Shown: piece after piece, positions 1 through 20,526 of the stretch
How positions within the stretch are numbered: the first letter of the stretch is position 1
How the letters are laid out: every line of letters begins with the position of its first letter
Origin: Aquiflexum gelatinilyticum
GTDB lineage: Bacteria > Bacteroidota > Bacteroidia > Cytophagales > Cyclobacteriaceae
Direction: 5' to 3'
DNA length: 64,000 nt
Assembly (NCBI RefSeq): GCF_024741135.1
Contig: NZ_JANSUY010000001.1
Location: forward strand, 620,001-684,000
The notes under the pieces: generated by a model
Databases searched by the model: none
Told to the model about the DNA's origin: nothing
What the model saw: only the letters and a program-made list of their open reading frames with translations
Made by a program: the position numbers and the translations under genes

Positions 1-1506
1 TATGATGAAAATTCCAAAATAACCAAGGAAAGTGAAAGGAAAAATAATTTAATTATTGATTTCCGGAATCGGTTAAACGAGTTTAACATTTCTTTTTTGG
101 CTCTATTGTATTATAAGAAAAAATATAAGTTGATTGATAAACTTTTGTTCCAAACAGATAGCCAGCCTCCAAAATTATTTTTAAGCAAATTTAGTTTTGA
201 TCAAATTTTAAAATGGAATTTAGATTTTAGAAAAGATAGTTTTGAAAGGAACTGGAATGTTTCTTATTATTTCGATGATCTTGAGTTTGATTCAATAGGG
301 TTTCAAAAAGATTCGAAGTATTATATTTCTGAATTTTGTTTGATTCTTCTCCTTTTTAAATGGATTGATGATTATGGCCTTCATTTAAGAGTCGATAATC
401 CAACGTTATCAATACCTGATAATCTGAATCTAAAAAAATCACTGATTTACAAGTTACCATTCCTGATCAGACAGTTAAAAAAAATTCTTGATAACAAAAA
501 TTTAATAACAAAAACTAATTTACAGAAGATAACTAGAAGAAATTGTTTTCTATCTGGTATAAAATATCCGATCGATTTTTTGGAAGAATATAGAATGAAT
601 TTAGAAAACCAATTTGAAATCCAACTTGGTACAGGACCATTAGATAATTCTAAAATCAAAGAATTAAAGGAATACACAGTCAACCAAATTAAATCGGTTT
701 ACGATAACCTTAGCAGAATTAAAGGAAATGATGTCACAAAAGAAAAAAGGGATAGCATTAGTGATTTTATGGAGGTAATTAGAGGTACGAGAATTCCTCT
801 TAATAGAGAAGCCTTTCTTGAAAATTCTACTGTTCATTATATCGATTATGACAAGACCCTAGGCAGATATATAAAAAATGAATATAATGACCACTTCTTG
901 TCAAAAATATCTCTTTTGTCTAGTAAAACTTATATGGTTGAATATAAAGAATTATTTAATGCGGTTGATTTGTTGCAAATCAATAAGGAATCCCACTTAA
1001 TAATTGCAGTCAACTTAAATTTGGATTATTTAAATTCATTTTTAAAGTTAGAGCTTTCGGAATGCCAAGAAGGTTTAGAAGATTATAGGTACAAAGATAT
1101 TCCAATTTTTTCTTATAGCGGTGGGCGATCAAGAACTGGTCAACTTTATGTTTTTAATAAAGAAAATAAACCAATGATTAAACATAAAGATTGGAAAGAG
1201 ATTAATGGACCAACCCAAGAATTTATTTCAAGATGGAAAAAAATGGAATTAATTGATGAAGATCTAAAAATCTACTATCAGCACACAGAAATTAAAGATG
1301 ATAAAGAACTTTTGAAGGAATATTTGGAAAGCTCTCAATTTAATAAGGAGGAATTATTAAAAATGGTACAATTTGATGTTGACTTTATGGGATATTGTTG
1401 GTTTCCTAAAGACATAAAAATTGTAAATATCTCTCAAGGAGATATGTTCAAGCAAGGGGGAAATTTGAACAAATTGGAGGAAATAGAGCCTTTTGACAAA
1501 AATTAA
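1..1506 (+). CDS. unrecognised protein, 5' end cut by window edge
   Basis: The reading frame is open from base 1, so the true start lies outside the window. The TTG at 97 is only an internal codon. At least 501 codons are visible, ending at TAA 1504-1506. I do not recognise the family. The protein is rich in Lys, Asn, Ile and Leu, mostly soluble, with probable long helices in the first half and a mixed alpha/beta C-terminal half containing a YSGGRSRTGQ stretch. No signal peptide or membrane segment is visible. The DNA is clearly more AT-rich than the genes from 4.5 kb onward. The next gene, a T5orf172-type protein, starts 44 bases downstream on the same strand, so the two may be one transcript. 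A mobile or defence-related cassette is possible, but this is only an inference from base composition and neighbour. Confidence 0.72.
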   Translation, partial: YDENSKITKESERKNNLIIDFRNRLNEFNISFLALLYYKKKYKLIDKLLFQTDSQPPKLFLSKFSFDQILKWNLDFRKDSFERNWNVSYYFDDLEFDSIGFQKDSKYYISEFCLILLLFKWIDDYGLHLRVDNPTLSIPDNLNLKKSLIYKLPFLIRQLKKILDNKNLITKTNLQKITRRNCFLSGIKYPIDFLEEYRMNLENQFEIQLGTGPLDNSKIKELKEYTVNQIKSVYDNLSRIKGNDVTKEKRDSISDFMEVIRGTRIPLNREAFLENSTVHYIDYDKTLGRYIKNEYNDHFLSKISLLSSKTYMVEYKELFNAVDLLQINKESHLIIAVNLNLDYLNSFLKLELSECQEGLEDYRYKDIPIFSYSGGRSRTGQLYVFNKENKPMIKHKDWKEINGPTQEFISRWKKMELIDEDLKIYYQHTEIKDDKELLKEYLESSQFNKEELLKMVQFDVDFMGYCWFPKDIKIVNISQGDMFKQGGNLNKLEEIEPFDKN

Positions 1507-1550
1507 CTTCTAAATCACATCTCAGAATTGAAGTCTAATTCTCTTATTTT

Positions 1551-2285
1551 ATGAAAAAAAAAGTTCTTTCAAATTTGTCACCAAAGCAACTGAGACAACA
1601 TTTGGATTCGAAAAAGAGGAATGCTAATGTAAAAACCATATCTGAGTCAATCTCGAAAGAAAATCCTACACTTGGAGAATTTATCATGCGACATAAATTA
1701 GATAAGTCATTGTTTTTTGATGCCAACAAAAACCAAATATCTTCTGTTTATGGGCAAATGATAAAGCAGGGTAAACAATTTGCTTACAATACAATCCCAT
1801 GTTATCAGGGTCATACATATAGAGATCGTAAAAATCATTGTTTGATTTGCAACACTTCAAGGATTACTTTTCAATTAAGGAATTCATCTGAAGGTTTTGT
1901 TTATATCGCAGGAAGTGTGAGGAAACGGATGATGAAAATTGGTGTAACTGATAAGATTTTTAGTCGTGAAAGCAGTTTAAATAAAAGCGGATATGCTGAC
2001 ACAGATGATTGGAAGATACTTTATTGGTTTTATTCTGAAAAAATTGGTGAGATCGAAAATGAAGTAAAAAGTAAGTTGAAAGTTCATAATACTTTAGTTC
2101 CTTTTCTCAAATATTCAAAAGAACATAAAATTGCAGAGGAGGTGTTTTTTTGTGGTTTTGATAGAATTTTTACAGCGCTAAAGGGAGTGATACACGATAA
2201 TGGTATTGCAATTTCTCAAGAACTATTGAAGTCAGATCATATATCTTCTTATCAGTTTAGAAATTGGGTGAAATTAAAAAAGTAA
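1551..2285 (+). CDS. zinc-finger plus T5orf172 (GIY-YIG-like) domain protein
   Basis: A protein of 244 residues. Residues 84-100 hold a CYQGH...CLIC pattern (C84, H88, C97, C100) that looks like a small zinc-binding site. Residues about 116-180 match the T5orf172/Mug113 branch of the GIY-YIG nuclease fold: VYIAG at 117-121, MKIGVT at 128-133, R139, and an acidic pair E169/E171 before a basic helix. In this family such residues are catalytic; that this protein cuts DNA is inferred. The N-terminal 80 residues are basic and helical. The start ATG at 1551 follows the preceding gene by 44 bases. AT-rich codon use is shared with the upstream gene, suggesting joint acquisition. The fold call is fairly good, but the biological role (homing, restriction or phage defence) is open. 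Confidence 0.7.
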   Translation: MKKKVLSNLSPKQLRQHLDSKKRNANVKTISESISKENPTLGEFIMRHKLDKSLFFDANKNQISSVYGQMIKQGKQFAYNTIPCYQGHTYRDRKNHCLICNTSRITFQLRNSSEGFVYIAGSVRKRMMKIGVTDKIFSRESSLNKSGYADTDDWKILYWFYSEKIGEIENEVKSKLKVHNTLVPFLKYSKEHKIAEEVFFCGFDRIFTALKGVIHDNGIAISQELLKSDHISSYQFRNWVKLKK

Positions 2286-2369
2286 AAATTTTTGAGTTTT
2301 TTAAATTAACCTTTTCTAATTTTTTTAACATCTGTAGATATAATTGTATTGATTATTTATTTTGAATTC

Positions 2370-2759
2370 ATGAAATGGGATAAAATCATCACTACCGAAA
2401 AGGAATATGAGGCTGCCTTGAATAGGTTGGCCAAGGTTTTTGAAGCTCATCAAGATAGCCCTGAGGGAATGGAAGCGGAATTGTTGGTTACACTGATTGA
2501 AAAGTTTGAAAAAGAACACTACCCAATCAATTTACCAGACCCAATTATAGCAATCAGAGAAGCTATTGAAATGAAGGGTTTAAAAGAAAAAGACCTAATT
2601 CCTGCAATAGGCAGTAAAACTACTGTTAGTCTTGTACTCAATCGCAAGAGGGCAATGACTGTAGATATGATCAGAAATCTCAAAGAATTACTCGGACTGC
2701 CTTTGGAAGTCCTCATCCAACCCTATGAACTGAATGGTGAGCGGGAATTGGTGAAATGA
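2370..2759 (+). CDS. orphan HigA-type antitoxin / XRE regulator
   Basis: A protein of 129 residues from ATG 2370; an in-frame TTG at 2349 would add seven residues but leaves no room for a leader. The N-terminal third (MKWDKIITTEKEYEAAL...) is the typical start of COG5499 HigA-like proteins. The C-terminal half is a helix-turn-helix (GLKEKDLIPAIGSKTTVSLVL). Such proteins normally neutralise and repress a RelE/HigB-type mRNA interferase encoded just upstream. Here the upstream gene is the T5orf172 protein and only 84 bases separate them, so no toxin gene is present. It is either a solitary regulator, or it regulates or counteracts the unusual upstream genes. The family call is strong; the partner is unknown. 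Confidence 0.8.
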   Translation: MKWDKIITTEKEYEAALNRLAKVFEAHQDSPEGMEAELLVTLIEKFEKEHYPINLPDPIIAIREAIEMKGLKEKDLIPAIGSKTTVSLVLNRKRAMTVDMIRNLKELLGLPLEVLIQPYELNGERELVK

Positions 2760-2798
2760 GGATAAGAAAACTTGATTTATTTTGAAATCAGAATTGTG

Positions 2799-2866
2799 TC
2801 CTTAAATCCTTAAATCCTTAAATCCTTCCAATCTTCGAATCTTCCAATTTTTCAATTTTCCAATTC
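2799..2866. repeat. short tandem repeat in convergent gap
   Basis: About 3.6 copies of the 8-mer TCCTTAAA occupy 2799-2827. They are followed by degenerate TTCCAAT/TTTTCAAT units to 2866, running into the end of the ABM gene. Similar TTTTTCAATTTTCCAAT-type tracts occur after Tex (44838-44870, other strand) and at 46551-46576, so this is a small dispersed family placed just behind gene ends. Confidence 0.6.
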
Positions 2867-3238
2867 AAACCCATAATCCCTTTCGACCAAACAAATCCTT
2901 GTTTTGTAGGAGGAATACCATTTTTCCCTACCCATTCGCTGTGCAAAGAGGTGTTCACTGACCATTTTCCAGTTGCGGATGGCATCGAGGCTTTCCCAAT
3001 AGCTGACCGTGATGCCAAGTCCAACTCTCGCGGATTCGTGCCCGAGATAGCCTGATTGCTTTTTTGCAAGTTCGACCATTTGATCCGCCATTTCACCATA
3101 ACCATCATCCACTTCTGTACGGAGGCTGGTGAAAATAACTGCATAGTAAGGCGGGGAAGGTGTATAGGCAATAGCGTTTACTTCTTTATTCATTTCAGAA
3201 TCTGGGATGTTTTTTCCCAAATTTGGATATTTAATCAT
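2852..3238 (-). CDS. antibiotic biosynthesis monooxygenase (ABM) domain protein
   Basis: A protein of 128 residues. The segment YYAVIFTSLRTEVDDGYGEMADQMVELAKKQSGYLGHESAR followed by a SYWESLDAIRNWK stretch is the dimeric alpha/beta-barrel signature of ABM-type proteins. This family includes haem-degrading and quinone-forming monooxygenases and many small uncharacterised enzymes. No haem-ligand residue can be assigned by eye, so no substrate is claimed. It is transcribed leftward, convergent with the HigA-type gene. The start at 3238 shares a CATG with the start of a broken plus-strand stub. A shorter start at about 3193 (MNKEV) is possible, because the first 15 residues lie outside the fold. 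Confidence 0.78.
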   Translation of the reverse strand: MIKYPNLGKNIPDSEMNKEVNAIAYTPSPPYYAVIFTSLRTEVDDGYGEMADQMVELAKKQSGYLGHESARVGLGITVSYWESLDAIRNWKMVSEHLFAQRMGREKWYSSYKTRICLVERDYGFELEN

Positions 3239-3314
3239 GAAATTTAATCTCTTAATCGCTTTGTTTTTTTCATTAGGCTTTTATTTCAAAGCCCAAAATG
3301 TCCATTCGATGTGA
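3237..3314 (+). pseudogene. signal-peptide stub of a lost secreted protein
   Basis: ATG 3237 opens a 25-codon frame whose product is a textbook Bacteroidota signal peptide: MKFNLL, then a hydrophobic core, then FKAQN. It hits TGA at 3312-3314. No plausible mature protein follows in any frame before 3765. This looks like the 5' remnant of a deleted or decayed exported protein gene. A chance hydrophobic frame cannot be excluded. Confidence 0.35.
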
Positions 3315-3764
3315 ATGGAAGTAAGTTATGGGTTTATCATCCCTCATTCCCCAGAACTCAGTCAAATTTCCCAATCCAAGTCTTTTGGATTCCCGGTTCA
3401 TTACTAAAATCTGAATTAAAAGGAATTGAATTTATTCTAGTTCAGTTAATATTTATCACCTTAAAAGTAAGTCTTTTCTGGTATGATTAGATTTGAATTT
3501 TTTTCTAACAAAACCGAGTATTACAATGGTCTTTACAAAAAAAATCATTTCGTCTATTAGATTAATGAAAATAACTAATTGTTGGGTTATTCAATTTTCA
3601 TGGTAGTATAAATATCACATACCTGATACCATGAAATTCATTTCACATTCAGAATGCTGTAAGATTATTTTATTTTGGCACATAGTTTTCATATATTTAA
3701 AGAAATCGATTTATCTTTTTGATTATAAAAATTTTTATTGGAGTAAACTAAAGCCTTTACAGAT
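3315..3764. other. intergenic region without recognisable gene
   Basis: AT-rich spacer of 450 bases between the signal-peptide stub and the secreted-protein gene. I see no RNA gene, no long open frame and no clear terminator. The last 100 bases must hold the promoter of the gene at 3765, but no clean TAnnTTTG element was found. Confidence 0.5.
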
Positions 3765-4460
3765 ATGAGACCATCCCTCACTTTATTCTTTACTTTCCTA
3801 TATTTCTTTGCCAATGGGCAGGAAATTAAAGGAAATATCGCAAATCATGAAAAATCCGAAATGGATATGGTTTTGATGCTTTTTGGGATGGATTATCCGA
3901 TTTCAATAGGGTCTGTTGATAAAAAAGGTCAGTTTACAGCAAATCTTGAAAATATCAGCTTGGATCAAATTCCTGAAGAAAACAGGTCAATGTCAATAGG
4001 GCCTCTCTATTTTAATTTTCATTTTAATTGTAATAGTCCTGAGGATTTTGGTGGAAATGCTGAAAAACTGGCAGCAAGACAGGATTATGTCAGGTTGACA
4101 GAAAAGGGAGATTGGTCAGGTACAGTTTTTTTAGTTTCTGATGAAGGGATTAAATCCTGGCTTGAAGACCCCGGATATATTAATGCTGTTAAAGGGTCTT
4201 TTTATGAAGTGATGTATGTAGATGAGGATATAAGTTTAAATGTAACTTGTAAAAGCAGTGTTTATGCTGCCGATGATGAGGAAGTTGAAACTGAATACAG
4301 TTTTGATATCGAATTGAAAAAGGGCTTTAATTGGGTTGAATATACCATTCTTGAAGTGCATGAAACCGACCCTAACATCAGGGCTTCATTTCCTTCCAAA
4401 GTAACTATCACCAACATGAGAGATCCTTCCAAGATGATGTGGATAGGCAAGTATTACTGA
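3765..4460 (+). CDS. secreted protein of unknown function
   Basis: A protein of 231 residues with an N-terminal signal peptide (MRPSLTLFFTFLYFFANGQ, probable cleavage after GQ). The mature part is acidic and beta-rich, with a DDEEVETE patch near residue 170. I do not recognise the family. It ends 131 bases before the tricorn-like protease, on the same strand, and may be independently transcribed. Export to the periplasm or beyond is inferred from the signal peptide alone. Confidence 0.75.
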   Translation: MRPSLTLFFTFLYFFANGQEIKGNIANHEKSEMDMVLMLFGMDYPISIGSVDKKGQFTANLENISLDQIPEENRSMSIGPLYFNFHFNCNSPEDFGGNAEKLAARQDYVRLTEKGDWSGTVFLVSDEGIKSWLEDPGYINAVKGSFYEVMYVDEDISLNVTCKSSVYAADDEEVETEYSFDIELKKGFNWVEYTILEVHETDPNIRASFPSKVTITNMRDPSKMMWIGKYY

Positions 4461-9747: not shown

Positions 9748-10653
9748 ATGAAAATCAAAAATCTTGCCCTCAAAGGTGGTGGAGTCAAAGGAATCGCTTA
9801 TGTAGGAGCCCTAAGGGAAATGGATCGTGCCGGCCTGCTTTCGGGAATCGAGAGGGTAGCAGGGACATCGGTTGGGTCTTTGTTGGCAGGGATGATTTGT
9901 GCAGGCTATTCAGTTGATCAGGTTGAAAATTTGCTCAAGCACCATTTTGACCTTAAGAAATTTAAAATAGGTTGGAACCCGCTTCGGATTTTCAAATTTT
10001 ATGGGCTTTACTCAGGAAAATATATTTTGGATTTTATCCATTCTTATCTTGTTGGATCTCCAAAAAACCTTCCTCCCAATGTTACCTTCCGTCAGATGAA
10101 GGAGGCAGGCTGCAAAGAACTTTATGTTTTTGCCTGCGACCTCAACCTCCATACGATTCAGGAATTTTCTTTCCTTAAAACCCCTGAGGTGGTTGTCGCA
10201 GAAGCAATCCGTGCTTCGATGTCCATTCCTATGTTTTTCAGGGCATGGAAGTTTAGGGATTCCAATCCTAATGACCATATTTTCGTTGACGGCGGCATTG
10301 CTTTCAATTATCCTTTGGGATTTTTTGACAATGAACGATTTGCTCCTTCCCCGGATTTCATATGTGAGGAAGCTATCGGGCTGTACCTGCATGACAAATC
10401 AAGCGACAAAGAAGTTGACCTACGTTTTTCCCACCCCTTGAATTTTCTAAAGCAGTTGTTTGAAACACTACTGAATGTCCAAAACATCGATATCGGGTTT
10501 GAAACGGCCGAAGGAAACCGGTCTGTCAGGATTGACGGATTGGGGATTCCTTCCACAGATTTCAATCTTTCCCTTCATGATATGGATAGGCTGATCCGCT
10601 CAGGTGCAGACCATACGAGGGATTTTTTGAGAAAAAATACAATCATAAATTAA
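9748..10653 (+). CDS. patatin-like phospholipase
   Basis: A protein of 301 residues with all patatin marks: the oxyanion GGGVKG at 10-15, nucleophile S41 in GTSVGS, and catalytic D181 in VDGGIAFNYP. Patatins are Ser-Asp dyad acyl hydrolases that release fatty acids from phospholipids. There is no signal peptide, so it probably acts in the cytoplasm or at the inner leaflet. Its stop lies 10 bases before the next gene, which is followed after 7 bases by a DyP-type peroxidase. A three-gene operon is therefore likely. Coupling fatty-acid release to a haem peroxidase suggests lipid peroxide or oxylipin chemistry, which is an inference. Confidence 0.92.
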   Translation: MKIKNLALKGGGVKGIAYVGALREMDRAGLLSGIERVAGTSVGSLLAGMICAGYSVDQVENLLKHHFDLKKFKIGWNPLRIFKFYGLYSGKYILDFIHSYLVGSPKNLPPNVTFRQMKEAGCKELYVFACDLNLHTIQEFSFLKTPEVVVAEAIRASMSIPMFFRAWKFRDSNPNDHIFVDGGIAFNYPLGFFDNERFAPSPDFICEEAIGLYLHDKSSDKEVDLRFSHPLNFLKQLFETLLNVQNIDIGFETAEGNRSVRIDGLGIPSTDFNLSLHDMDRLIRSGADHTRDFLRKNTIIN

Positions 10654-10663
10654 AACATACTTT

Positions 10664-11923
10664 ATGAGGCAAAACTCCATCACCACCATTGTCCCTGTTA
10701 AAAAAGATAAGATAGAACTCTTATTGAAATTGCTTGACGGGATAAAAACCGATCTTGATCTTGGAAATCCACCCGAATTTGAAAAACTGAATGTTATCCA
10801 TTATGCACGATGGGTAGTCATCGACTATGGCAAATCATGGATCGATGATCTCACTCCACGGATTCCCAAACTAGTTTTTGTGGTGGATTTTGATGGAGAT
10901 GTGGATGTTTTTTTAAAGAGCTTTTGCTCAGATACCTCGGATATCTTGGACAAGGTTTATGGATTTTGTGAAGGATTTCCTGAGGGAGAAAAAAGGACTC
11001 CGGAAAGTAGGTTTTCATTCCTTAAAAATAATGTGGTAAAAGACGCAGCCGTTTATATCGGAGCCCCCGGAAGGACAGTGCAACAGATTAAGGACGAAAA
11101 TAACCTAAGGAATTTTATCAGGAATTACCTTGATTCCAGGGATTGGAAGGATGTTTCAGCGCATACCATCCACAAAAAAATCAAAGAGGAAGTGCTCAAA
11201 AAAGAGGAGTTTTTATTTCTCCGAAAAAAAACCAAAATGCCCGGGATCAATTGGCTTGGACTTGTTTTTCTCGGTTTGGTTCTGATTGTATTACTTCCTT
11301 TGATTATCGTTTGGCTGCTTATTGTCCATTTTTTCTATGAAAGGAAAGATGTGAACTTCACCAAAAAGAGGAGTGGACTGGACAGTGCCTATTTGGACGA
11401 ACTTGAAAAATATGAGGACTGGAAAAACCAAAATCAGTTTACCCAACTCGTGGACATGAAGGAAGGAAAAGTAAGGCTGATTACCATCAAGGCTATGTTT
11501 GCCCTGTCAAAAGAGTTGATCAAATTTGTCTTTGTCCAAGGAAAACTGATGGGGATCCCTACCATCCATTTTGCCAAATGGGTGATGTTTGAAGACAACT
11601 CAAGGGTTTTGTTTTTCAGCAATTTTGACGGAAGCTGGCAGCAATATCTTGGGGACTTTATCGACAATAGCGGGTGGGGTCTGACCGGGATTTTTTCCAA
11701 CACCAAGGTATTTCCGAAAACCAATTTTTTATTGACTGGAGGGGCTTATGATGAGGAACATTTCCTGGCTTGGAGCAGGAATTCAGAACTGATTACCAAT
11801 GTCTGGTATTCTGCCTATCCGGATCTTTCGATCAAAAATGTCAATAACAATACTAAAATCAGGGTACAGCTCATGAAATCCCTTTCAGAACGAAAGGCTG
11901 CCAAATTCCTCAAACTCATTTGA
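10664..11923 (+). CDS. duplicated-domain membrane protein between patatin and DyP
   Basis: A protein of 419 residues that I cannot name. Two related halves flank one strong membrane helix (about 195-226). The N-terminal copy has VIHYARWVVIDYG...LVFVVDFDGDVDVFLKSF (about 45-88). The C-terminal copy has TIHFAKWVMFEDNSRVLFFSNFDGSWQQYLGDF (about 298-330). Each begins IH[YF]A[RK]WV and reaches a [DN]FDG turn, so the protein arose by internal duplication. The pattern recalls the ferredoxin-like barrels of DyP and chlorite-dismutase folds, but this is only a visual impression. Its position inside a tight operon (10 and 7 base gaps) suggests it works with the patatin and the peroxidase, perhaps as a membrane anchor or lipid-binding partner. 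Confidence 0.85.
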   Translation: MRQNSITTIVPVKKDKIELLLKLLDGIKTDLDLGNPPEFEKLNVIHYARWVVIDYGKSWIDDLTPRIPKLVFVVDFDGDVDVFLKSFCSDTSDILDKVYGFCEGFPEGEKRTPESRFSFLKNNVVKDAAVYIGAPGRTVQQIKDENNLRNFIRNYLDSRDWKDVSAHTIHKKIKEEVLKKEEFLFLRKKTKMPGINWLGLVFLGLVLIVLLPLIIVWLLIVHFFYERKDVNFTKKRSGLDSAYLDELEKYEDWKNQNQFTQLVDMKEGKVRLITIKAMFALSKELIKFVFVQGKLMGIPTIHFAKWVMFEDNSRVLFFSNFDGSWQQYLGDFIDNSGWGLTGIFSNTKVFPKTNFLLTGGAYDEEHFLAWSRNSELITNVWYSAYPDLSIKNVNNNTKIRVQLMKSLSERKAAKFLKLI

Positions 11924-11930
11924 TATCCTT

Positions 11931-13421
11931 ATGACAAAATTAGAACTAGAAGATATTCAAGGCTATATCATCCGCGGTTATGCACATATGATGTATTCGC
12001 GATTTGTGTACATCAAAATTACAAACCGCAAGGCTGCCAAAAAATGGCTTGCCAAATCTTGGGCATCCATGACTACTGCAGTCCATGTCCATGACAAATC
12101 CAAGATTTCAAGCACCCATTTGAACATAGCTTTTACACACAATGGTCTTGGAGCTCTTGGGATGTATGAGGAAAACCTTAATGCCTTTTCAAGGGAATTC
12201 CGTCAGGGAATGATCACCCCCCACAGGACAAGGCTTTTGGGTGATTCAGGTAACAGTGATCCTATCATGTGGAATTGGGGAAATGAAAATATAAAAACCC
12301 AAAACCCAGAAATAACCGACCAAGAAGATAAAACCATTCACCTTTGTTTGATGATTTTTGGTAATGACAAAGGAAGTGTTGATGACATTGAAAAAGATAA
12401 AATTGTCTGCCTTGATTATTACAAGGAGTTAGAATCACAATTTGAAGAAAATGGTTTGAAGGAACTGTTTTTTATAGATGGGGTTACACAGCCGGAAAAC
12501 AAGGAGCATTTTGGGTTTAGGGATGGGATTTCGCAACCGATCATAGAAGGTTCGGGAAGGGTAGGTTCCAAAGATGATGTGGTAAAGGCAGGTGAGTTTC
12601 TCTTTGGCTATCAAAATGAATTTGGTGTGTATCCCGACACCCCGCTAGTCGTCAAAGATCAGGGAAACCTCAACTTCCTTGCATCCGATGCAGGAGGAAG
12701 TGGATTGAAGGATATTGGAAGAAACGGATCTTTTCTAGTTATGCGACAGCTTGAACAGGATGTGAATGGTTTTTGGACCTTTATGAATGAAAAGACAAAG
12801 CATCCTGATGGCACTATCAATGTGGAAGAAAGTCTAAAGTTGGGTGCAAAAATTGTAGGAAGATGGCAAAGTGGGGCGCCAATAACGCTTTTTCCTGATA
12901 AAGACCCCGGAGTCATCAGTGATATCAATGATTTTGGCTATTCCAAATTTGATCCTGACGGATTGAAATGTCCCTTCGGTTCCCATCTTCGGCGTTCCAA
13001 CCCCCGAGACAGCGTGGATGACCATGGTGTAAAGGAATCGCTCAAGCTAAGCAAACAGCATAGGATTATTAGAAGGGCAAGGCTTTATGGACAGGTTTTT
13101 GAAGGCTCTCCTACCAATAAAAACCCGAAAGGAGAAGTGGGATTGCTGTTTGCCTGCTTTAATGCAGACATCAGTCGGCAGTTTGAGTTTCTCCAATATA
13201 CTTGGGGCAAGCTCCCCAAAGTCAAAGAACTCTATAATGATCCTGATCCGATAATTGGAGTTAAAGAAAATCCCGAACCAGGAGAAAAACAGAACTTTAC
13301 AATCCAAGATTGTCCTGTCAACCGGACCATCTCCGACCTGCCAAGATTCATTACTGTCAAAGGCGGTGGATATTTCTTTTTTCCATCTATTAGCACACTT
13401 AGGTATTTGGCTACGATTTAA
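11931..13421 (+). CDS. DyP-type haem peroxidase
   Basis: A protein of 496 residues. The DyP signature GFRDG sits at 195-199 with catalytic D198. The proximal haem His is H352 in CPFGSHLRRSNPRD, a candidate distal Arg is R381/R382 in HRIIRRARLYG, and the C-terminus has the usual GGGYFFFPSIS stretch. DyP enzymes use hydrogen or organic peroxides to oxidise dyes, phenols or lipids, with Asp/Arg as the acid-base pair. There is no Tat or Sec signal, so it is cytosolic or recruited by the membrane protein encoded just upstream. The length places it with the long (C/D or V-type) DyPs. It ends the three-gene operon and faces the catalase-like gene. Confidence 0.93.
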   Translation: MTKLELEDIQGYIIRGYAHMMYSRFVYIKITNRKAAKKWLAKSWASMTTAVHVHDKSKISSTHLNIAFTHNGLGALGMYEENLNAFSREFRQGMITPHRTRLLGDSGNSDPIMWNWGNENIKTQNPEITDQEDKTIHLCLMIFGNDKGSVDDIEKDKIVCLDYYKELESQFEENGLKELFFIDGVTQPENKEHFGFRDGISQPIIEGSGRVGSKDDVVKAGEFLFGYQNEFGVYPDTPLVVKDQGNLNFLASDAGGSGLKDIGRNGSFLVMRQLEQDVNGFWTFMNEKTKHPDGTINVEESLKLGAKIVGRWQSGAPITLFPDKDPGVISDINDFGYSKFDPDGLKCPFGSHLRRSNPRDSVDDHGVKESLKLSKQHRIIRRARLYGQVFEGSPTNKNPKGEVGLLFACFNADISRQFEFLQYTWGKLPKVKELYNDPDPIIGVKENPEPGEKQNFTIQDCPVNRTISDLPRFITVKGGGYFFFPSISTLRYLATI

Positions 13422-13554
13422 AAGAAAGGCAGGAGACAGAAGATGTGAGACTATTGGAATTAATAATTATGAAAATGTTTTAGTTAGGCTAATGACAGTA
13501 GGTGTTGGGTCATCTTGAATCCGAGGTAAATGGATGAAAGGTCTCAGAGTAAAA

Positions 13555-13582
13555 GAGACTCTTAGCTACACTCAGAGTGACG
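13555..13582. repeat. REP-like dispersed element, copy 2
   Basis: GAGACTCTTAGCTACACTCAGAGTGACG-type element lying in the convergent gap between the DyP and catalase-like genes. It is in the opposite orientation to the copy at 7846-7880; the shared ends are GAGA[TC]TCTTAG and CTCAGA[AG]T[AG]ACG. Confidence 0.55.
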
Positions 13583-13613
13583 ACTTGGATTTTCACTAGA
13601 ATCTTTCATTAAA

Positions 13614-15173
13614 TCAATCTTCCAAATAAGCTTTTGCGTTGTTCAAGCCGTTTTGGAGGTACTTTTTCAGAAATAGTGGAATGAATAACATGAGGAATAA
13701 TTTGGCAAAAATGTTTTTGTAAGTGAAAGTATAGACCCACCTCAGTCTTGTCTGGTCATCTACAGTGTCAAACCACATCTGCCCGTAGGTTTTATTGGTC
13801 AACCGTTTGAAAATATCACTGAAGTCTGTGGTCTGGTACGCATAGTGGGAATATTTGCACACAGTGATTAATTCCTCCACCAGCTTGGCAGAATCCCCTC
13901 TTTCGATTCTCCTGTTGTCTCCTACGTATTCCCAATTTCCTCTTAGTGTGGTCACATTGATGACACCATAGATAGGTCCTGTTTTCAAGAGCCAATTGGG
14001 AAGTTCCTTGACACTTGATACATACTTATAGGCTTTTTCTTTATTGCAGTTGACGGTCACTTCTGCGGATGTCTGAAGTATTTTTTTGCTTGGAACTTTC
14101 TGGTCAATGGTTACTTTATCGTTTAACTTATTAAGGTCTGAATAAAAATCATGAGCATGTTTAGGTTCAAGAACAGGCAATTTGTTTTTGTCGTGACGGA
14201 ATTTGGACATGACCTCATACACCCTTTTTCTTACCCTGTTGAAACTTCCCAAAGGCCGGTGCTCGGGCAATGAATGCCATGGATTGAAAGACAGGTTATC
14301 TCCAAACTCCATCCGTGCATTGGAATCAAAAGTTTGCGGGTGGATAGTAAGGGAAGCTACCTTGATGTATTGGGATGTCCAGGCAACGGTTGGGTCCTCT
14401 ATCGGCATTGCATCTGCATCGGTTTGGAATTGGACAAAAAAGTCAAATTTGGCTTCATTGCCGTATAGAGTTTGTGCTAGATTGTAACGCAGGTAATCAT
14501 AATCCTTTGTGTTTTCTACTATAGTAATATTGCTTGGAGAAGGTCTGAGATGGTATTTTACAGCTCTATCCACTGTCCCGAACTGGTAAGGCTGTGTACT
14601 CCAATAAGGGATACTGAGTGGATTGTCGCAGGCTACCATACTTTTCTTGATCCGCATAAGGGTCGGTAAGTGAAAAGGATTTAGAAAGTAAAGCAACGAT
14701 TTGAGTTTACTCGCAGACGTGATGGCAGCTAGAAGGGTGTTAAGTTCTTTGATGGTTTTTGCAAAAAAAGTTTCGCTGCTCATCAGCAGAAAATCCTGAG
14801 TTTCCTGAAAATGGGCATCGTTTAGAATCTTTTCCCCTGGCACTCCCATCAGTTTGATGGCGGCACCTCGGATATCTTTTTTCTTGTCTTTCTGAGTTTG
14901 GGTGTTGCCGTTTGAAAACCTAACCCATGCCTGGTATTCTTTTTCATGCTTAAATACCCCGACTTTCAATTCTTCAGGCAGGTCTTTCTCTACGGTAAAT
15001 GTAGCTTTGACACAGCCATGCATTTTGGTATGGACTTGTCGCAGCATTTTTTTGTCCTTATACATCCTGGTGACCTGGGCTTCAAATTCGTTGACCATCT
15101 GAGCGGCAATGCTGTCTTCGTCAGCAGTCACATATTCATGCCCTAATTTTTTACCTGAAAGTATATCTGACAT
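13614..15173 (-). CDS. catalase-like haem protein fused to SRPBCC lipid-binding domain
   Basis: A protein of 519 residues. Residues about 10-345 are a minimal catalase-fold protein: H48 in RQVHTKMHG is the likely distal His, QDFLLMSSE (126-134) replaces the usual distal Asn region, and the LSFNPWHSLPEHRPLGSFNRVRKRVYE block (294-320) carries Y319 as probable proximal haem ligand. True catalases are longer at the C-terminus and keep the Asn, so dismutase activity is doubtful. Related small haem proteins include allene-oxide-synthase-like and SrpA-like enzymes. Residues about 362-519 form a START/SRPBCC-like domain (EVTVNCNKEKAYKYVSSVKELPNWL...), a fold that binds hydrophobic ligands, ending in a hydrophobic helix. 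It converges on the patatin-DyP operon. A lipid hydroperoxide substrate is inferred. Confidence 0.85.
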   Translation of the reverse strand: MSDILSGKKLGHEYVTADEDSIAAQMVNEFEAQVTRMYKDKKMLRQVHTKMHGCVKATFTVEKDLPEELKVGVFKHEKEYQAWVRFSNGNTQTQKDKKKDIRGAAIKLMGVPGEKILNDAHFQETQDFLLMSSETFFAKTIKELNTLLAAITSASKLKSLLYFLNPFHLPTLMRIKKSMVACDNPLSIPYWSTQPYQFGTVDRAVKYHLRPSPSNITIVENTKDYDYLRYNLAQTLYGNEAKFDFFVQFQTDADAMPIEDPTVAWTSQYIKVASLTIHPQTFDSNARMEFGDNLSFNPWHSLPEHRPLGSFNRVRKRVYEVMSKFRHDKNKLPVLEPKHAHDFYSDLNKLNDKVTIDQKVPSKKILQTSAEVTVNCNKEKAYKYVSSVKELPNWLLKTGPIYGVINVTTLRGNWEYVGDNRRIERGDSAKLVEELITVCKYSHYAYQTTDFSDIFKRLTNKTYGQMWFDTVDDQTRLRWVYTFTYKNIFAKLFLMLFIPLFLKKYLQNGLNNAKAYLED

Positions 15174-15402: not shown

Positions 15403-18400
15403 ATGGAGTGGCATGTTTTGTATGCAGGAAAAATTCATTCTATTCTGAGGTCAGAATCGTTTTTTGAGCAAAATTTTGTCATCAAAAAAGCTTCCCTTAC
15501 TTCCTTATCCCAAATAGATTTTCTAAAATCAGGAAACGAAGCCTCTTTTGTAGACGAGTCAATTGAAGGATTCAGAAAAGTTCTGGCTATTGAAAACAGC
15601 AATTCAGAATCTCATCTAAAATTACAGTTTATAAAAGGACAAAATCTTAGGGAGCATAATTCAAATTCGCTAAGCGTTATCGATAAATTAAAAATCTGTA
15701 TTGCCATCACCAAAAGACTTGCGGAAGTTCACCGTCAGGAAATTGTTCATTTGAACCTTAATCCCGAGCATATCCTGATTGAATCGGGGACAAACAAGAT
15801 TTTCTTTATCAGTTTAGGATTGGCTACCCGGATTCAGAGAAAAATAGGGGTACAGAGCAGGTTAATTTTTTCGGAGGCTGACTATGATTTTATAGCGCCC
15901 GAACAGACAGGTAGAATCAGTACCGACATCGGTTATTATACAGATATATATTCATTGGGGGTTGTTTTTTATTGGTTGTTTACCTCAAAGCTTCCATTTG
16001 GATCGAAGGAAGGTTCCTCCAAAATCCACGCCCATATCGCCCTGACTCCAAGAAGTCCCGCAGATATGGTAGATATCCCAAAAATCATTTCAGACCTGAT
16101 CCTGAAAATGCTTGAAAAAGATATTCAGACAAGGTATCAGTCTGCAACTGGTGTTTTGTATGATCTGGAATTGGTCCTGAATGGTCTTCAGAGAAAGGGA
16201 ATTGCACCCAGCTTTGAACTTGGGACCAATGATTCTTCGGGTGTACTCAGATTCTCAGATGAGCTATATGGTAGAGAAAAGCAAATTGTTCAGCTGAAGG
16301 ATGCATTCCAACGGGTTTTGGAAGATGAAAAAATCCTCATGCTTGTCTTCGGGAATTCCGGAGTAGGGAAGTCAGTCTTGGTAGACCAACTTTACAGGCC
16401 TGTAATCAAAGATGGAGGATTTTTCATTTCCGGTAAATTTGACCAATTGAGAACTGATGTTCCTTATTCAGCTTTTTCCCAGGCTTTGGGAAGGCTCGTA
16501 AGTCAGATATTGCTGTTGAATGAAAAAGACCTTGGACATTGGAAGCATGAGCTTCACAGATTGCTCCATCCTATCGGAAGGGTTTTGTTTGATATCATTC
16601 CCGGATTGGAAAGGCTTCTGGAAAATGAACCTGAATTACCGGTCCTCAACGGTGTGGAAGCACAATTGAGATTTAACTATGCCCTTAACAATTTCTTTCA
16701 GGCGTTTTCAGATTCAAGCAAACCCCTCGTTATTTTCATTGATGACCTGCAGTGGTGTGATCTTTCATCTCTTAATCTCATCCGGAATATTCTCACCAAC
16801 AAAGACCTGAAAAACATCTTGATCATTGGGGCTTACCGGGATAATGAAATCACAACGGGTCATTTATTTCTTCAATTCAAAATGGAAATCGAAGAGCTTG
16901 GAATCCAACCTGAAGAAATCTACCTGGAAAATCTTCAGTATGAGGACATACAACGGCTGATTTCCAATACTTTGGGAAAATCCAAAAGCCCTTTGGATGA
17001 ATTGGTGAAGATTGTAGACAAAAAATCTGCTGGAAACGCATTGTTTGTAAACCAGTTTTTGAGAGCCATTTACAAAAATGAAATGCTTCATTTTGACAGT
17101 GCAGAGGGAAGTTGGAAATGGGATGTGGATGAATTGATGGGTTATAATGTCGAAGGGGATATTGTCAATCTCTTTTTGGAAACCATCAATAAATTACCCT
17201 CAGCATGTATAGATGTCTTAAAATTAGCTTCCTGTATCGGGAACAAATTTGGCTTGGGCGAATTGGCGATCATCACCCGAGAAGGCAAATACAATGTCTA
17301 CCAAGCACTAAAGCCCGCACTTGACCTTGACTTGATCATAGAAAGCCGTGATGGTAACCTGTATTTTGTTCATGATAGGGTTCAGCAAGCTTTTTATTCA
17401 TTAAACGATGACCTTGGCAGGCAGGAATACCACCTCAAGATTGGCAGACTTCTTTTAGAAAATACGCACGAGGAAGACCTCAGGGAAAGCATATTTGATA
17501 TTGTAAACCAGTTCAACTTTGCAAAGGATCTGGTTTCGGATCCTTTGGAATCAAAGAAACTTTGCGAGCTCAATATCATTGCCGGTCAGCGTTCTCAAAG
17601 CGCCACCGCCTACTTGCTGGCAATCCAGTACTTTGAAAATGCGATCCAGTTTCTTCCCGCAGATGCATGGGAAAAAGATAAGAAATTCACTTACAACCTG
17701 TATTTGAATGCCGCTATCGCTGCCAACCAATCCAACAAGCGTGACCGGTTTAAGGAATTTACACTCCTGCTTGATGCCAATGCCACGGATATTTTGGACA
17801 AGCTACGCCTTGCTGAGCTCAAGATCCAAAATGCAAATGTTGAAAATGACCAAAAGCGGGTGATTGAAATCGGACTTGAGGCCCTTCATTTTGCCAATAT
17901 CCATTTAAAACTTCACCCGACTCAGCTTGATGTGCTCTTTGGGTACCTGATGACCAATGCGCGCTTGGCTTTTTTTAAAGAAGACGACATCGAAAAACTG
18001 GCCAAAATTGAAGATGAGAAACTGATCATCAGCATGTCCATCATGCACCATATGTCTTTGGCAGCCTACTTTTTAGAGCCCAATATGGTACCCCTTATTA
18101 TGTTTGAGCTAATCCGGCTTACACTCAAATTTGGTTTGGGTCCAAAGACCCCCTTTGCTTTTGTGGTTTTTGGCTATATCAATATTGCCTTTATGGGGAA
18201 AATGGAGAAGGGACTCAAAATGGGTCAGCTTGGTAACAGGCTTGGTGAAATTCTCAATAACGAAGATCAGTTTGTATCCCTCAAGCAGGTCTATGTGATG
18301 TTTATTTCCCAATGGCTGACGCATTTGGCAGGGACGATTCCTGATTTGGAGGAGGCATTGAAAAAAGGCCTTGAAACCGGAGATTTTGAATTTACCTCTA

Positions 18401-20526
18401 TCATTGGGCAGCTGATCATTTATTGGAATTTTTACGGAGGTGAGCCAGTCGACAAAGTCCTCAAAAGAGGAGAACTCCTCAGCATGCAAGTAGCCCCTCT
18501 CAATCAAATCATGCAGATCAAGCGAATTGACCTGTTCAGGCAATCCACTTTGGGTCTGGTGGATGGAGTCAGAGACTTTGAGGTCTTGGCAGGCGAAATT
18601 TTTGATGAGCAAAAAATAGATTTTCCAAATGAACCGGCTTTTGGACTTTATTTCCATAACCTATATGCCCAGAAAAAATTTCTTGCAATGGTCTATAACC
18701 AAAATGAGGCCGCTTGGAAATTCTGTTGCAAGGAAAAAGAATATTTGATTCCGGTCAAAGGTTCAGTGACAGAGATGTTGTTTTATTTCTATGAAAATCT
18801 CTGCATTACTCCCATTTATTCTTCCAAAGAATCTGAAGAACGTAAAAAATTACTCAAAATCTGCAGGAAAAACATCAAATTGATCAAAGGGTTGTTGAAA
18901 TATTCAGAGGTCAATTACCGGCACAGGTATGAATTGATGAATGCAGAGTACGAAAACCTGAAAAATAACTTTGACACAGCAGTCAAAGCCTATACCTATG
19001 CTATCAGGTATGCTCGCCTCAACAAGTATATCCATGAAGAGGCCTTGATATGGGAGAGGGCAGGATTGTTTTTCAAATCACAAAACCAACCCGAGGCAGC
19101 CCAATTCTATTTTTCCAATGCCTACAAGGCCTATGCAAAATGGGGTGCAAAAGGAAAGCTGGAGCAGATGAAAGAGGAGTATGTAGGTTTTATTTCGCTT
19201 GAAGAAATCGGACTCAAATCCAATAACCTCGACTTGGATACCATTCTAAAGACTATCAACCTGATTTCGGGAGAAATGGTATTGGAAAACATCCTTACCG
19301 GACTGATGAAACTTGTTACCGAAAATGCAGGAGCTGAAAGGGCATTTTTGGTCACCCGCGAAAAAGACAAAAAAGTCATCAAAGCCTCTTTGGATATTTC
19401 AAACAATGAAATACAGGTTTTGCAGGATATTTCTTTTGATACGTTTGATGAAATCAGCCATTCGGTAGTCAATTACGTCATGAGGACAGGAGAAACCCTC
19501 GTCTTGGATGATGCTAGTACAAGACTGCCTTATTCCAATGACGAATATATTTTGAGGAATAAAATCAAATCAGTGGTCTGCCTGCCTTTGAAGCATGCAG
19601 GAGAAGGATTTGCATTCCTATATCTGGAAAACAGGCTGCTGTCCGGTGCATTTACCAAAGAAAGAATCGAAATTCTCCAAGTGATGGCAACCCAAACAGC
19701 CATTTCATTACAAAATGCCATGCTTTTGGACCAGACTACCCGACTCAACAGGGAATTGAAACAGGAAGTAGAGGTAAGGAAAGCTGTTGAAGAAAATCTA
19801 AGGATCAATGAAAAAAGGCTGGAAGAATATAATGCCAACCTTGAATACAAAGTCAATGAAAGGACCATAGACCTCCAGTCTGAAAAAGAGAAAACAGATG
19901 AATTGTTGTTGAACATCCTGCCAATGGACATAGCCCGTGAACTCAAGGAAAAAGGGACTGCACAAGCCAAAAAGTTTGAAAGTGTCAGCGTACTCTTCAC
20001 CGATTTTGTCGGGTTTTCGATCATAGCCGAAAACATGAGTGCAGATGAGCTTGTTTCAGAGATCGATTATTGTTTCAAAGAATTTGACAGGATTATTCAG
20101 AAGTACCCCATTGAGAAAATCAAAACTATCGGGGATGCTTACATGGCAGTGGGTGGTCTTCCTGTAACCAATAATTCCCATGCGGTCGATGTCATCAATG
20201 CAGCCTTGGAAATAAAGGATTTTATTGAAGCCTACAAACAGAAAAAGATAGCTCAAAACAAACCGGTTTTTGAAGTCCGAATCGGGGTCCACACAGGAAA
20301 TGTGGTCGCAGGAATAGTGGGACTCAAAAAATTCGCCTATGACATTTGGGGAGATACAGTAAACCTTGCTTCACGGATGGAAAGCAGCAGTAAACCAGGA
20401 AAAATCAACATTTCGGGAACAACATATGAACTTGTCAAAGACAGGTTTGATTGCACCTACCGGGGTAAAATCATGGCCAAAAACAAAGGGGAGGTCGATA
20501 TGTATTTTGTGGAGGGAGTTAAATAA
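15403..20526 (+). CDS. pseudokinase-AAA-GAF-adenylate cyclase signalling giant
   Basis: A protein of 1707 residues. Order of parts: protein-kinase fold (about 1-270); AAA_16-type ATPase with Walker A GNSGVGKS at 317-324 and Walker B D447-D448; a long helical-repeat middle section (about 600-1270); GAF domain (about 1290-1435); coiled coil (about 1445-1505); and class III nucleotide cyclase (about 1525-1705). In the kinase the HRDLK motif reads H116-L-N-L-N and no DFG is visible, so it is probably catalytically dead. The cyclase keeps both metal Asp (D1534, D1578), the adenine-type pair K1574 and D1647, and transition-state N1654 and R1658, so it should make cAMP. The architecture resembles HstK-like kinase-AAA-GAF sensors with a cyclase in place of the histidine kinase. 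It is divergent from the catalase-like gene with 229 bases between. Confidence 0.92.
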   Translation: MEWHVLYAGKIHSILRSESFFEQNFVIKKASLTSLSQIDFLKSGNEASFVDESIEGFRKVLAIENSNSESHLKLQFIKGQNLREHNSNSLSVIDKLKICIAITKRLAEVHRQEIVHLNLNPEHILIESGTNKIFFISLGLATRIQRKIGVQSRLIFSEADYDFIAPEQTGRISTDIGYYTDIYSLGVVFYWLFTSKLPFGSKEGSSKIHAHIALTPRSPADMVDIPKIISDLILKMLEKDIQTRYQSATGVLYDLELVLNGLQRKGIAPSFELGTNDSSGVLRFSDELYGREKQIVQLKDAFQRVLEDEKILMLVFGNSGVGKSVLVDQLYRPVIKDGGFFISGKFDQLRTDVPYSAFSQALGRLVSQILLLNEKDLGHWKHELHRLLHPIGRVLFDIIPGLERLLENEPELPVLNGVEAQLRFNYALNNFFQAFSDSSKPLVIFIDDLQWCDLSSLNLIRNILTNKDLKNILIIGAYRDNEITTGHLFLQFKMEIEELGIQPEEIYLENLQYEDIQRLISNTLGKSKSPLDELVKIVDKKSAGNALFVNQFLRAIYKNEMLHFDSAEGSWKWDVDELMGYNVEGDIVNLFLETINKLPSACIDVLKLASCIGNKFGLGELAIITREGKYNVYQALKPALDLDLIIESRDGNLYFVHDRVQQAFYSLNDDLGRQEYHLKIGRLLLENTHEEDLRESIFDIVNQFNFAKDLVSDPLESKKLCELNIIAGQRSQSATAYLLAIQYFENAIQFLPADAWEKDKKFTYNLYLNAAIAANQSNKRDRFKEFTLLLDANATDILDKLRLAELKIQNANVENDQKRVIEIGLEALHFANIHLKLHPTQLDVLFGYLMTNARLAFFKEDDIEKLAKIEDEKLIISMSIMHHMSLAAYFLEPNMVPLIMFELIRLTLKFGLGPKTPFAFVVFGYINIAFMGKMEKGLKMGQLGNRLGEILNNEDQFVSLKQVYVMFISQWLTHLAGTIPDLEEALKKGLETGDFEFTSIIGQLIIYWNFYGGEPVDKVLKRGELLSMQVAPLNQIMQIKRIDLFRQSTLGLVDGVRDFEVLAGEIFDEQKIDFPNEPAFGLYFHNLYAQKKFLAMVYNQNEAAWKFCCKEKEYLIPVKGSVTEMLFYFYENLCITPIYSSKESEERKKLLKICRKNIKLIKGLLKYSEVNYRHRYELMNAEYENLKNNFDTAVKAYTYAIRYARLNKYIHEEALIWERAGLFFKSQNQPEAAQFYFSNAYKAYAKWGAKGKLEQMKEEYVGFISLEEIGLKSNNLDLDTILKTINLISGEMVLENILTGLMKLVTENAGAERAFLVTREKDKKVIKASLDISNNEIQVLQDISFDTFDEISHSVVNYVMRTGETLVLDDASTRLPYSNDEYILRNKIKSVVCLPLKHAGEGFAFLYLENRLLSGAFTKERIEILQVMATQTAISLQNAMLLDQTTRLNRELKQEVEVRKAVEENLRINEKRLEEYNANLEYKVNERTIDLQSEKEKTDELLLNILPMDIARELKEKGTAQAKKFESVSVLFTDFVGFSIIAENMSADELVSEIDYCFKEFDRIIQKYPIEKIKTIGDAYMAVGGLPVTNNSHAVDVINAALEIKDFIEAYKQKKIAQNKPVFEVRIGVHTGNVVAGIVGLKKFAYDIWGDTVNLASRMESSSKPGKINISGTTYELVKDRFDCTYRGKIMAKNKGEVDMYFVEGVK

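Follow-up and report, generated by a model that had tools for sequence, protein, structure and literature searches.

A conserved bacterial module linking a DyP-type peroxidase to the DUP protein family and to a catalase-fold or P450 partner

Genes at the locus

The subject of this work is a group of neighbouring genes in a window of 64,000 nucleotides from the genome of Aquiflexum gelatinilyticum, a member of the Bacteroidota (assembly GCF_024741135.1, contig NZ_JANSUY010000001.1, positions 620,001 to 684,000). In window coordinates, the plus strand carries genes for a patatin-like phospholipase of 301 amino acids (aa; 9748-10653), a 419-aa protein with two ABM-type barrel halves and a hydrophobic insert, called DUP here (10664-11923), and a DyP-type haem peroxidase (496 aa, 11931-13421), with spacers of 10 and 7 bases; the minus strand carries a fusion of a catalase-fold haem domain with an SRPBCC domain (519 aa, 13614-15173). 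An earlier note, made from the sequence alone, had placed four genes at these positions and with this spacing. It had also named the patatin and the DyP, described the 419-residue protein as a membrane protein with two related halves, seen in the fusion a catalase fold joined to a lipid-binding fold, and called for structure prediction of both proteins; on all these points it is borne out by the coordinates, profile scores and models given in this section. The home genome (5.0 Mb) holds a single DUP, a single DyP and a single catalase-like gene of this kind, all inside 4.5 kb (its class III cyclases number three and its patatins seven), and these single copies, together with the recurrence of the gene set across phyla described below, place the grouping far beyond chance. 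The nearest named relatives of this genome in the scan are species of Cognataquiflexum.

DUP lies outside any Pfam family: no Pfam profile scored above its cut-off and a profile search of the PDB returned no match, for which reason membership of a known family was rejected, and the possibility that DUP is a degenerate DyP was set aside when neither half matched the DyP family profile. Profile-profile comparison indicates that the two halves are homologous (probability 98.4, E 4.6e-15), with the motifs IHxARW..D and FxxNFDG in common, and an AlphaFold2 model (pLDDT 85.9, pTM 0.86) presents two ferredoxin-like halves with a single hydrophobic helix between them. The closest folds are those of WhiE-ORFI (9lmn, Z score 14.9 over 222 residues) and AbxO (9ltx, Z 11.4), followed by two putative monooxygenases at approximately 10; both named proteins, like DUP, have two ferredoxin-like halves that form one barrel, but they are ~10-12% identical to it, and DUP is set apart by its hydrophobic insert and its association with haem enzymes. 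As modelled, DUP thus has a tandem ferredoxin-like barrel of the ABM/SchA-like fold, a likeness that says nothing on function. The insert (residues ~191-227, 11234-11344, plus strand, hydropathy maximum 3.28) is a single hydrophobic stretch and, to judge by its sequence, a probable membrane anchor; it is present in all long DUPs and missing from all single-domain DUPs, the form that occurs outside Bacteroidota. Since the two halves are encoded by separate genes in Granulicella, and Bradyrhizobium carries two single-domain copies, it is probable that the long DUP originated in a duplication followed by fusion. Of the two halves, the second is better conserved, and T55, H57, F72, G78, W80, Y83, D86, F87, F105, P106 and G115 within it are invariant in 13 cross-phylum sequences; His302 and an FDGxW..Y..DF motif belong to the conserved residues of DUP.

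The patatin-like phospholipase is identified as such by profile (Pfam Patatin, 89 bits; cut-off 27.7) and by a predicted Ser-Asp dyad, formed by Ser41 of a GTSVG motif and Asp181 of a DGG motif, that is retained in 13 of 13 family members. Profile scores for the DyP exceed the cut-offs of DyP_N (39.2 against 27.5), Dyp_perox_C (25.5 against 20) and TIGR01413 (103.9 against 100.5), and its haem pocket is predicted to hold the distal Asp198 of a GxxDG motif, the proximal His352 and the distal Arg381, residues conserved in the family in 61 of 63 (two sequences having Glu), 62 of 62 and 62 of 62 cases, respectively. By profile and by haem-pocket residues, this protein is a DyP-type peroxidase.

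The catalase half of the fusion (residues 1-345, 14139-15173, minus strand) was matched by sequence to MAP-2744c of Mycobacterium avium (3e4w, E 5e-9). In comparisons of its model with known structures, coral allene oxide synthase (AOS) and AOS-lipoxygenase (1u5u and 3dy5) gave Z scores of 23.6-23.7, 3e4y gave 23.2 and true catalases 22.6 and below; a difference of about 1 Z amounts to a tie, so that the fold leans towards coral AOS without amounting to proof. The core fold, the distal His48 and the proximal Tyr319 (RxxxY) characterize this half, as modelled, as a catalase-related (mini-catalase) haem protein, the His being present in 38 of 39 and the Tyr in 39 of 39 members of the family. The distal Asn is retained in 13 of the 39, and in the window its position is taken by Ser132; this replacement, and the lack of any PF00199 match at E up to 1, speak against a true hydrogen peroxide catalase. 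According to the title of a paper cited in PMC5617202, mutation of the distal Asn in coral AOS and human catalase alters the rate and not the essential chemistry, and loss of the Asn would therefore be compatible with activity of the catalase fold. In the catalase-like protein of a Saprospiraceae metagenome-assembled genome (L036:10707-11738), Glu replaces the distal His conserved elsewhere. The tail of the fusion, its last ~160 residues (356-519, 13614-14108, minus strand), is assigned to Polyketide_cyc2 by Pfam (37 bits, cut-off 27.4) and resembles Bet v 1-like structures in Foldseek; it is an SRPBCC / Bet v 1-like domain.

Past the fusion lies a plus-strand gene for a 1707-aa protein (15403-20526) in which Pfam domains delineate a pseudokinase, an AAA_16 (STAND) module, a GAF domain and a class III nucleotide cyclase (19963-20517; Guanylate_cyc, 185.5 bits). 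The catalytic Asp of the kinase domain has been lost in 22 of 23 family members, the window protein reading HLN and SLG with an intact Walker A; from these residues, the N-terminus is a pseudokinase, not an active Ser/Thr kinase. The cyclase slice has the metal-binding D57 and D101, the ATP-selecting K97 and D170 and the transition-state R181, and across the family metal Asps are found in 18 of 18 and ATP-type residues in 16 of 18 sequences, consistent with a class III adenylate cyclase. Promoter and terminator scans gave no more sites than shuffled sequence.

Conservation and composition of the module

The Bacteroidota sample consists of 33 loci from a scan of named genomes, plus more distant loci from whole-genome searches; the well-sampled loci, 33 in number, are those with at least 12 kb of sequence around the module. 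In all 44 Bacteroidota loci in which both genes could be read, DUP and DyP are adjacent and on the same strand, with gaps of -18 to 219 bases, mostly 2-25. The third partner is a catalase-fold gene in 27 of the well-sampled loci and a P450 of the GST-P450 type in three, and no locus holds both (Fisher p 0.004 over 33 loci, with no correction for relatedness). Distant Bacteroidota carry DUP, DyP and catalase-like genes as tight operons, some with overlapping ends. The distribution of the module is patchy, DUP being present in 17 of 146 relatives and in one of 392 genomes of a phylum-wide sample, namely the home genome. A patatin adjoins DUP in 11 of the 33 well-sampled loci, and was accordingly rejected as a core member and regarded as optional. 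A chance neighbourhood was likewise rejected, as the module recurs in several gene orders and as fusions, and its existence as a linked gene set is well supported. The earlier note had held that homologues scattered with no conserved neighbourhood would undo the idea of a system; a conserved neighbourhood was found. The four-gene system it had proposed stands as a conserved module, but its members are unequal, DUP and DyP being constant, the catalase-like gene exchangeable with a P450 and the patatin dispensable, nor are the four genes the complete set, since the pseudokinase-STAND-cyclase gene beyond them belongs with them.

The pseudokinase-STAND-GAF-cyclase family is represented in 19 of the 33 well-sampled loci, a number that rises to 25 when other class III cyclases are included. 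In seven loci, a cyclase-TPR protein (~650 aa) takes its place. The position of the regulator varies, being divergent upstream, upstream on the same strand, or downstream past the fusion. Outside Bacteroidota, the Pararhizobium copy is adjoined by a class III cyclase and a Crp/Fnr regulator and the Bradyrhizobium copy by a kinase-AAA_16-GAF-PAS protein. The pseudokinase-STAND-cyclase protein is a probable regulator of the module. The presence of a STAND-type regulator also raises the question of a conflict or anti-phage module, in which a STAND sensor would set off toxic lipid or oxygen chemistry through the patatin and the haem enzymes. TIR-SIR2 and nSTAND pairs that adjoin four copies, a CHAT protein beside one Rhizobium copy and a slight resemblance between the patatin and CBASS phospholipases could be cited in its favor, but the pairs were seen in those four loci only, the patatin reaches 30.6 bits against a cut-off of 200 for CBASS_lipase (an NCBIfam equivalog), and PADLOC gave no match for DUP, DyP or the fusion, on which ground a defence system was rejected; we regard the anti-phage explanation as very improbable.

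Several loci have further companions. SnoaL_2 proteins are neighbours of some modules. In four Bacteroidota loci (L086-L089, e.g., L086:11292-13262, minus strand), the catalase-like gene is followed by a convergent gene for a protein of 640-690 aa, which in the two loci examined is an ALO-type flavin adenine dinucleotide (FAD) oxidase and could supply peroxide. In L042, L048 (13793-17257), L049 and L050, a TIR_2-SIR2_2 gene and then an nSTAND1 membrane-protein gene lie beside the module, possibly as a defence or signalling pair.

Beyond Bacteroidota, the sample is a biased one of plasmid and chromid records, and many of its 51 DUP records are near-identical and do not represent 51 independent events. 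A DyP lies within 1.1 kb of DUP in 46 of them, and DUP and DyP form one chain in three (Pararhizobium, Novosphingobium and Sulfitobacter); as to the remaining two, one is a near copy of the fused DUP-DyP of the Rhizobium type, its DyP falling outside the matches listed, and the other has its DyP 6.8 kb away. Taken together, the copies of the module span six phyla at least, namely Bacteroidota, Pseudomonadota, Actinomycetota, Deinococcota, Cyanobacteriota and Acidobacteriota. A catalase-family gene completes the set in Microvirga, Rhodococcus, Deinococcus, Acinetobacter, Terrarubrum, Paracoccus, Sphingomonas, Rhizobium rosettiformans and Ketogulonicigenium; the P450 partner is a separate gene in Skermanella and part of P450-DUP-DyP chains in alpha-proteobacteria. 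Neither the Nostoc nor the Streptomyces copy was seen to have a catalase-like or P450 gene beside DUP-DyP; the two have in common a gene of ~340 aa (L067:8819-9859, L068:6487-7500) with no match to Pfam or to the module profiles. The Rhizobium DUP-DyP fusion (L060:4079-7017), beside which no third haem partner was seen, lies downstream of genes for a CHAT-domain protein and a DNA/RNA non-specific endonuclease. The Bradyrhizobium copy is followed by a DUF4331-Polyketide_cyc2 fusion (L076:8310-9557), where the SRPBCC domain has another fusion partner. The 12.4-kb permafrost plasmid pALWED3.4 of Acinetobacter lwoffii (L071) carries a complete DUP-DyP-catalase set, and the presence of the full set on so small a replicon suggests that the module moves horizontally.

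The Sphingomonas copy is accompanied by a thioesterase and a patatin, then TolC, RND and ABC genes, and export genes follow the module in Terrarubrum as well. Such genes would suit natural-product tailoring, in which DyP and the P450 or catalase-fold partner would oxidize, and DUP, SRPBCC or SnoaL proteins would act in a cyclase- or oxygenase-like manner upon, a polyketide, a carotenoid or another isoprenoid. The ABM/SchA-like fold of DUP, the Polyketide_cyc2 tail and the SnoaL_2 neighbours are all common in polyketide tailoring, and class V DyPs act on beta-carotene (PMC8197335). Among the annotated neighbours of the copies, however, no polyketide, terpene or carotenoid synthase was seen, and very different genomes harbor the same module, so that a tailoring role appears quite unlikely.

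A possible role in hydroperoxide chemistry

The interpretation that we favor, with a probability of roughly 0.45, is that of a conserved, signal-controlled module with a DUP-DyP core and a catalase-fold or P450 third partner, which would form and convert a hydrophobic hydroperoxide in an oxylipin-like manner; its product or substrate is probably an oxidized, fat-like molecule that is made or cleared. In such a scheme, the GAF/STAND regulator would sense a ligand or stress and bring about a change in cyclic AMP, and the patatin, where present, would free an acyl chain from a membrane lipid. DyP, kept with the membrane-anchored DUP barrel, would act on this hydrophobic substrate and turn it into a hydroperoxide or radical product; the catalase-fold or P450 partner could then rearrange, cleave or reduce the hydroperoxide. 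The SRPBCC domain may bind the product, and the outcome would be an oxylipin-like molecule that is made or cleared on demand.

The strongest argument for an oxylipin-like function is the exchange of the third partner. In corals, plants and fungi, the conversion of fatty-acid hydroperoxides falls to two types of enzyme, catalase-fold proteins and P450s (PMC5617202, PMC13049297), and it is these two types that substitute for each other here. The linked P450s retain ExxR and the haem Cys, and those of alpha-proteobacteria have GFxPTT or a similar motif in place of the acid-alcohol pair of oxygen-activating P450s, a further point in favor of this interpretation. A lipid substrate is further supported by the genes that adjoin distant copies, namely the thioesterase and patatin of Sphingomonas and the 3-hydroxyacyl-CoA dehydrogenase that neighbours the Deinococcus and Acinetobacter copies, and the oxidation of beta-carotene by class V DyPs, in some cases without hydrogen peroxide (PMC8197335), was counted as a precedent. 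The oxylipin or lipid-peroxide function anticipated by the earlier note therefore fits the intact haem pockets, the lean towards AOS, the P450 substitution and the lipid genes, but every one of its steps is unproven by sequence alone.

Several observations weigh against this interpretation. None of the DUP-linked sets has a known substrate, product or activity. No lipoxygenase or cyclooxygenase (COX)-like dioxygenase is linked to the module, and no COX-like gene is present among the profiled module genes. The GST-P450s of Bacteroidota read ETT, and thus retain the acid-alcohol pair. The patatin is absent from most loci, and the correlations of identity by which the partner trees agree (r 0.945 for DUP and DyP, r 0.91 for DUP and the catalase-like protein), a point counted in favor of the interpretation, are partly due to common descent. 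The remaining points concern Deinococcus radiodurans, whose DyP shows no in vitro activity at physiological pH (PMC10820274) and whose module proteins have been reported as stress-related (PMC5731708, PMC4868304).

These last reports lend themselves to an explanation in terms of peroxide scavenging during stress, whereby DyP and the catalase-fold protein would destroy hydrogen peroxide and organic hydroperoxides, DUP would serve as a scaffold at the membrane or as a barrel that handles haem, and the cyclase as an oxidative-stress switch. DR_A0145 and DR_A0146 are up after ultraviolet C (UVC)/vacuum treatment (PMC5731708), a CRP mutant shows a 2-fold drop in the dra0146 transcript (PMC4868304), and MAP-2744c, the nearest solved relative of the catalase-like protein, is a catalase-related protein. 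It is nonetheless hard to explain, if scavenging is the purpose, why a P450 should take the place of the catalase-fold protein, why SRPBCC and SnoaL companions occur, and why P450, DUP and DyP are fused, and the distal Asn of catalases is mostly gone from the family; we consider scavenging somewhat unlikely.

A more far-reaching version of the oxylipin-like interpretation would see in the module a widespread bacterial lipid-mediator pathway, in which DyP and its ABM-barrel partner act as a lipid dioxygenase of a new kind, the catalase-fold or P450 protein as a hydroperoxide isomerase and the pseudokinase-STAND-cyclase as a receptor, as an independent counterpart of the oxylipin cascades of animals, plants and fungi. 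This proposal is a doubtful one at present.

Known systems and further observations

The closest solved relative of the window DyP is that of D. radiodurans (8RE2/8RE3, DR_A0145; E 8e-47). The D. radiodurans locus (L066) has the DUP-DyP-catalase family gene set and is hence a copy of the module; from motif and gene order, we infer that it corresponds to DR_A0145/DR_A0146, two proteins that have been treated separately in the literature (PMC5731708, PMC4868304, PMC10820274). Unlike in the window, its DUP is a single domain with no membrane segment, the residue that follows the distal Asp is Met in native DrDyP and Gly in the window DyP, and neither a patatin nor a STAND-cyclase is adjacent.

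The single enzymes are of known kinds, and there is precedent for a haem oxygenase or peroxidase that works with a hydroperoxide-converting partner. In Nostoc, a linoleate 10S-dioxygenase is paired with a catalase-related hydroperoxide lyase (Brash 2014, as cited in PMC13049297); as described there, this pair, like the module, consists of a bacterial haem oxygenase and a catalase-fold enzyme that converts hydroperoxides, but its oxygenase is a COX relative and not a DyP, and DUP, cyclase and SRPBCC do not feature. Coral AOS and AOS-lipoxygenase (1u5u, 3dy5), the best fold matches of the catalase half, are likewise haem proteins for lipid hydroperoxides; AOS is 16% identical to it, and has a lipoxygenase in place of the SRPBCC partner domain and Asn in place of Ser at the distal position. 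M. avium MAP-2744c (3e4w, 3e4y), a small catalase-related haem protein that is 22-24% identical to the catalase half, differs from the fusion in having no SRPBCC domain. Fungal PpoA-like dioxygenase-P450 fusions, compared through their description in PMC13049297 and not by sequence, resemble the P450-DUP-DyP chains in joining a haem oxygenase or peroxidase to a P450 in one chain, but their oxygenase is COX-like and they have no DUP barrel.

The earlier note knew of no described system with such a gene set, and no published description of a DUP-DyP or DyP-P450 system was found in the open-licence literature. Within that literature, the DUP family, its near-obligate pairing with this DyP subfamily, the exchange of catalase and P450, the P450-DUP-DyP chains and the link to a pseudokinase-STAND-cyclase were not found described, and appear to be new. 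What DyP peroxidases act on in nature, and to what end, is a general question, and the module provides defined partners for testing in a DyP subfamily that comes with a nearly inseparable DUP and a hydroperoxide-type haem enzyme, including in the model organism D. radiodurans. Should an oxylipin be the product, the module would represent the bacterial equivalent of the lipid-mediator cascades of eukaryotes, with a cyclic-nucleotide switch of its own; should it serve detoxification instead, the 'hypothetical protein' next to many annotated DyPs still acquires a place and a fold.

Elsewhere in the window, positions 1-4000 have a G+C content of 0.29-0.34, against about 0.40 in the remainder, and contain open reading frames of 244 aa and 136 aa that were labelled GIY-YIG-like and HigA-like, respectively, both labels being unverified guesses. 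From the low G+C and these reading frames, this segment is probably a foreign insert.

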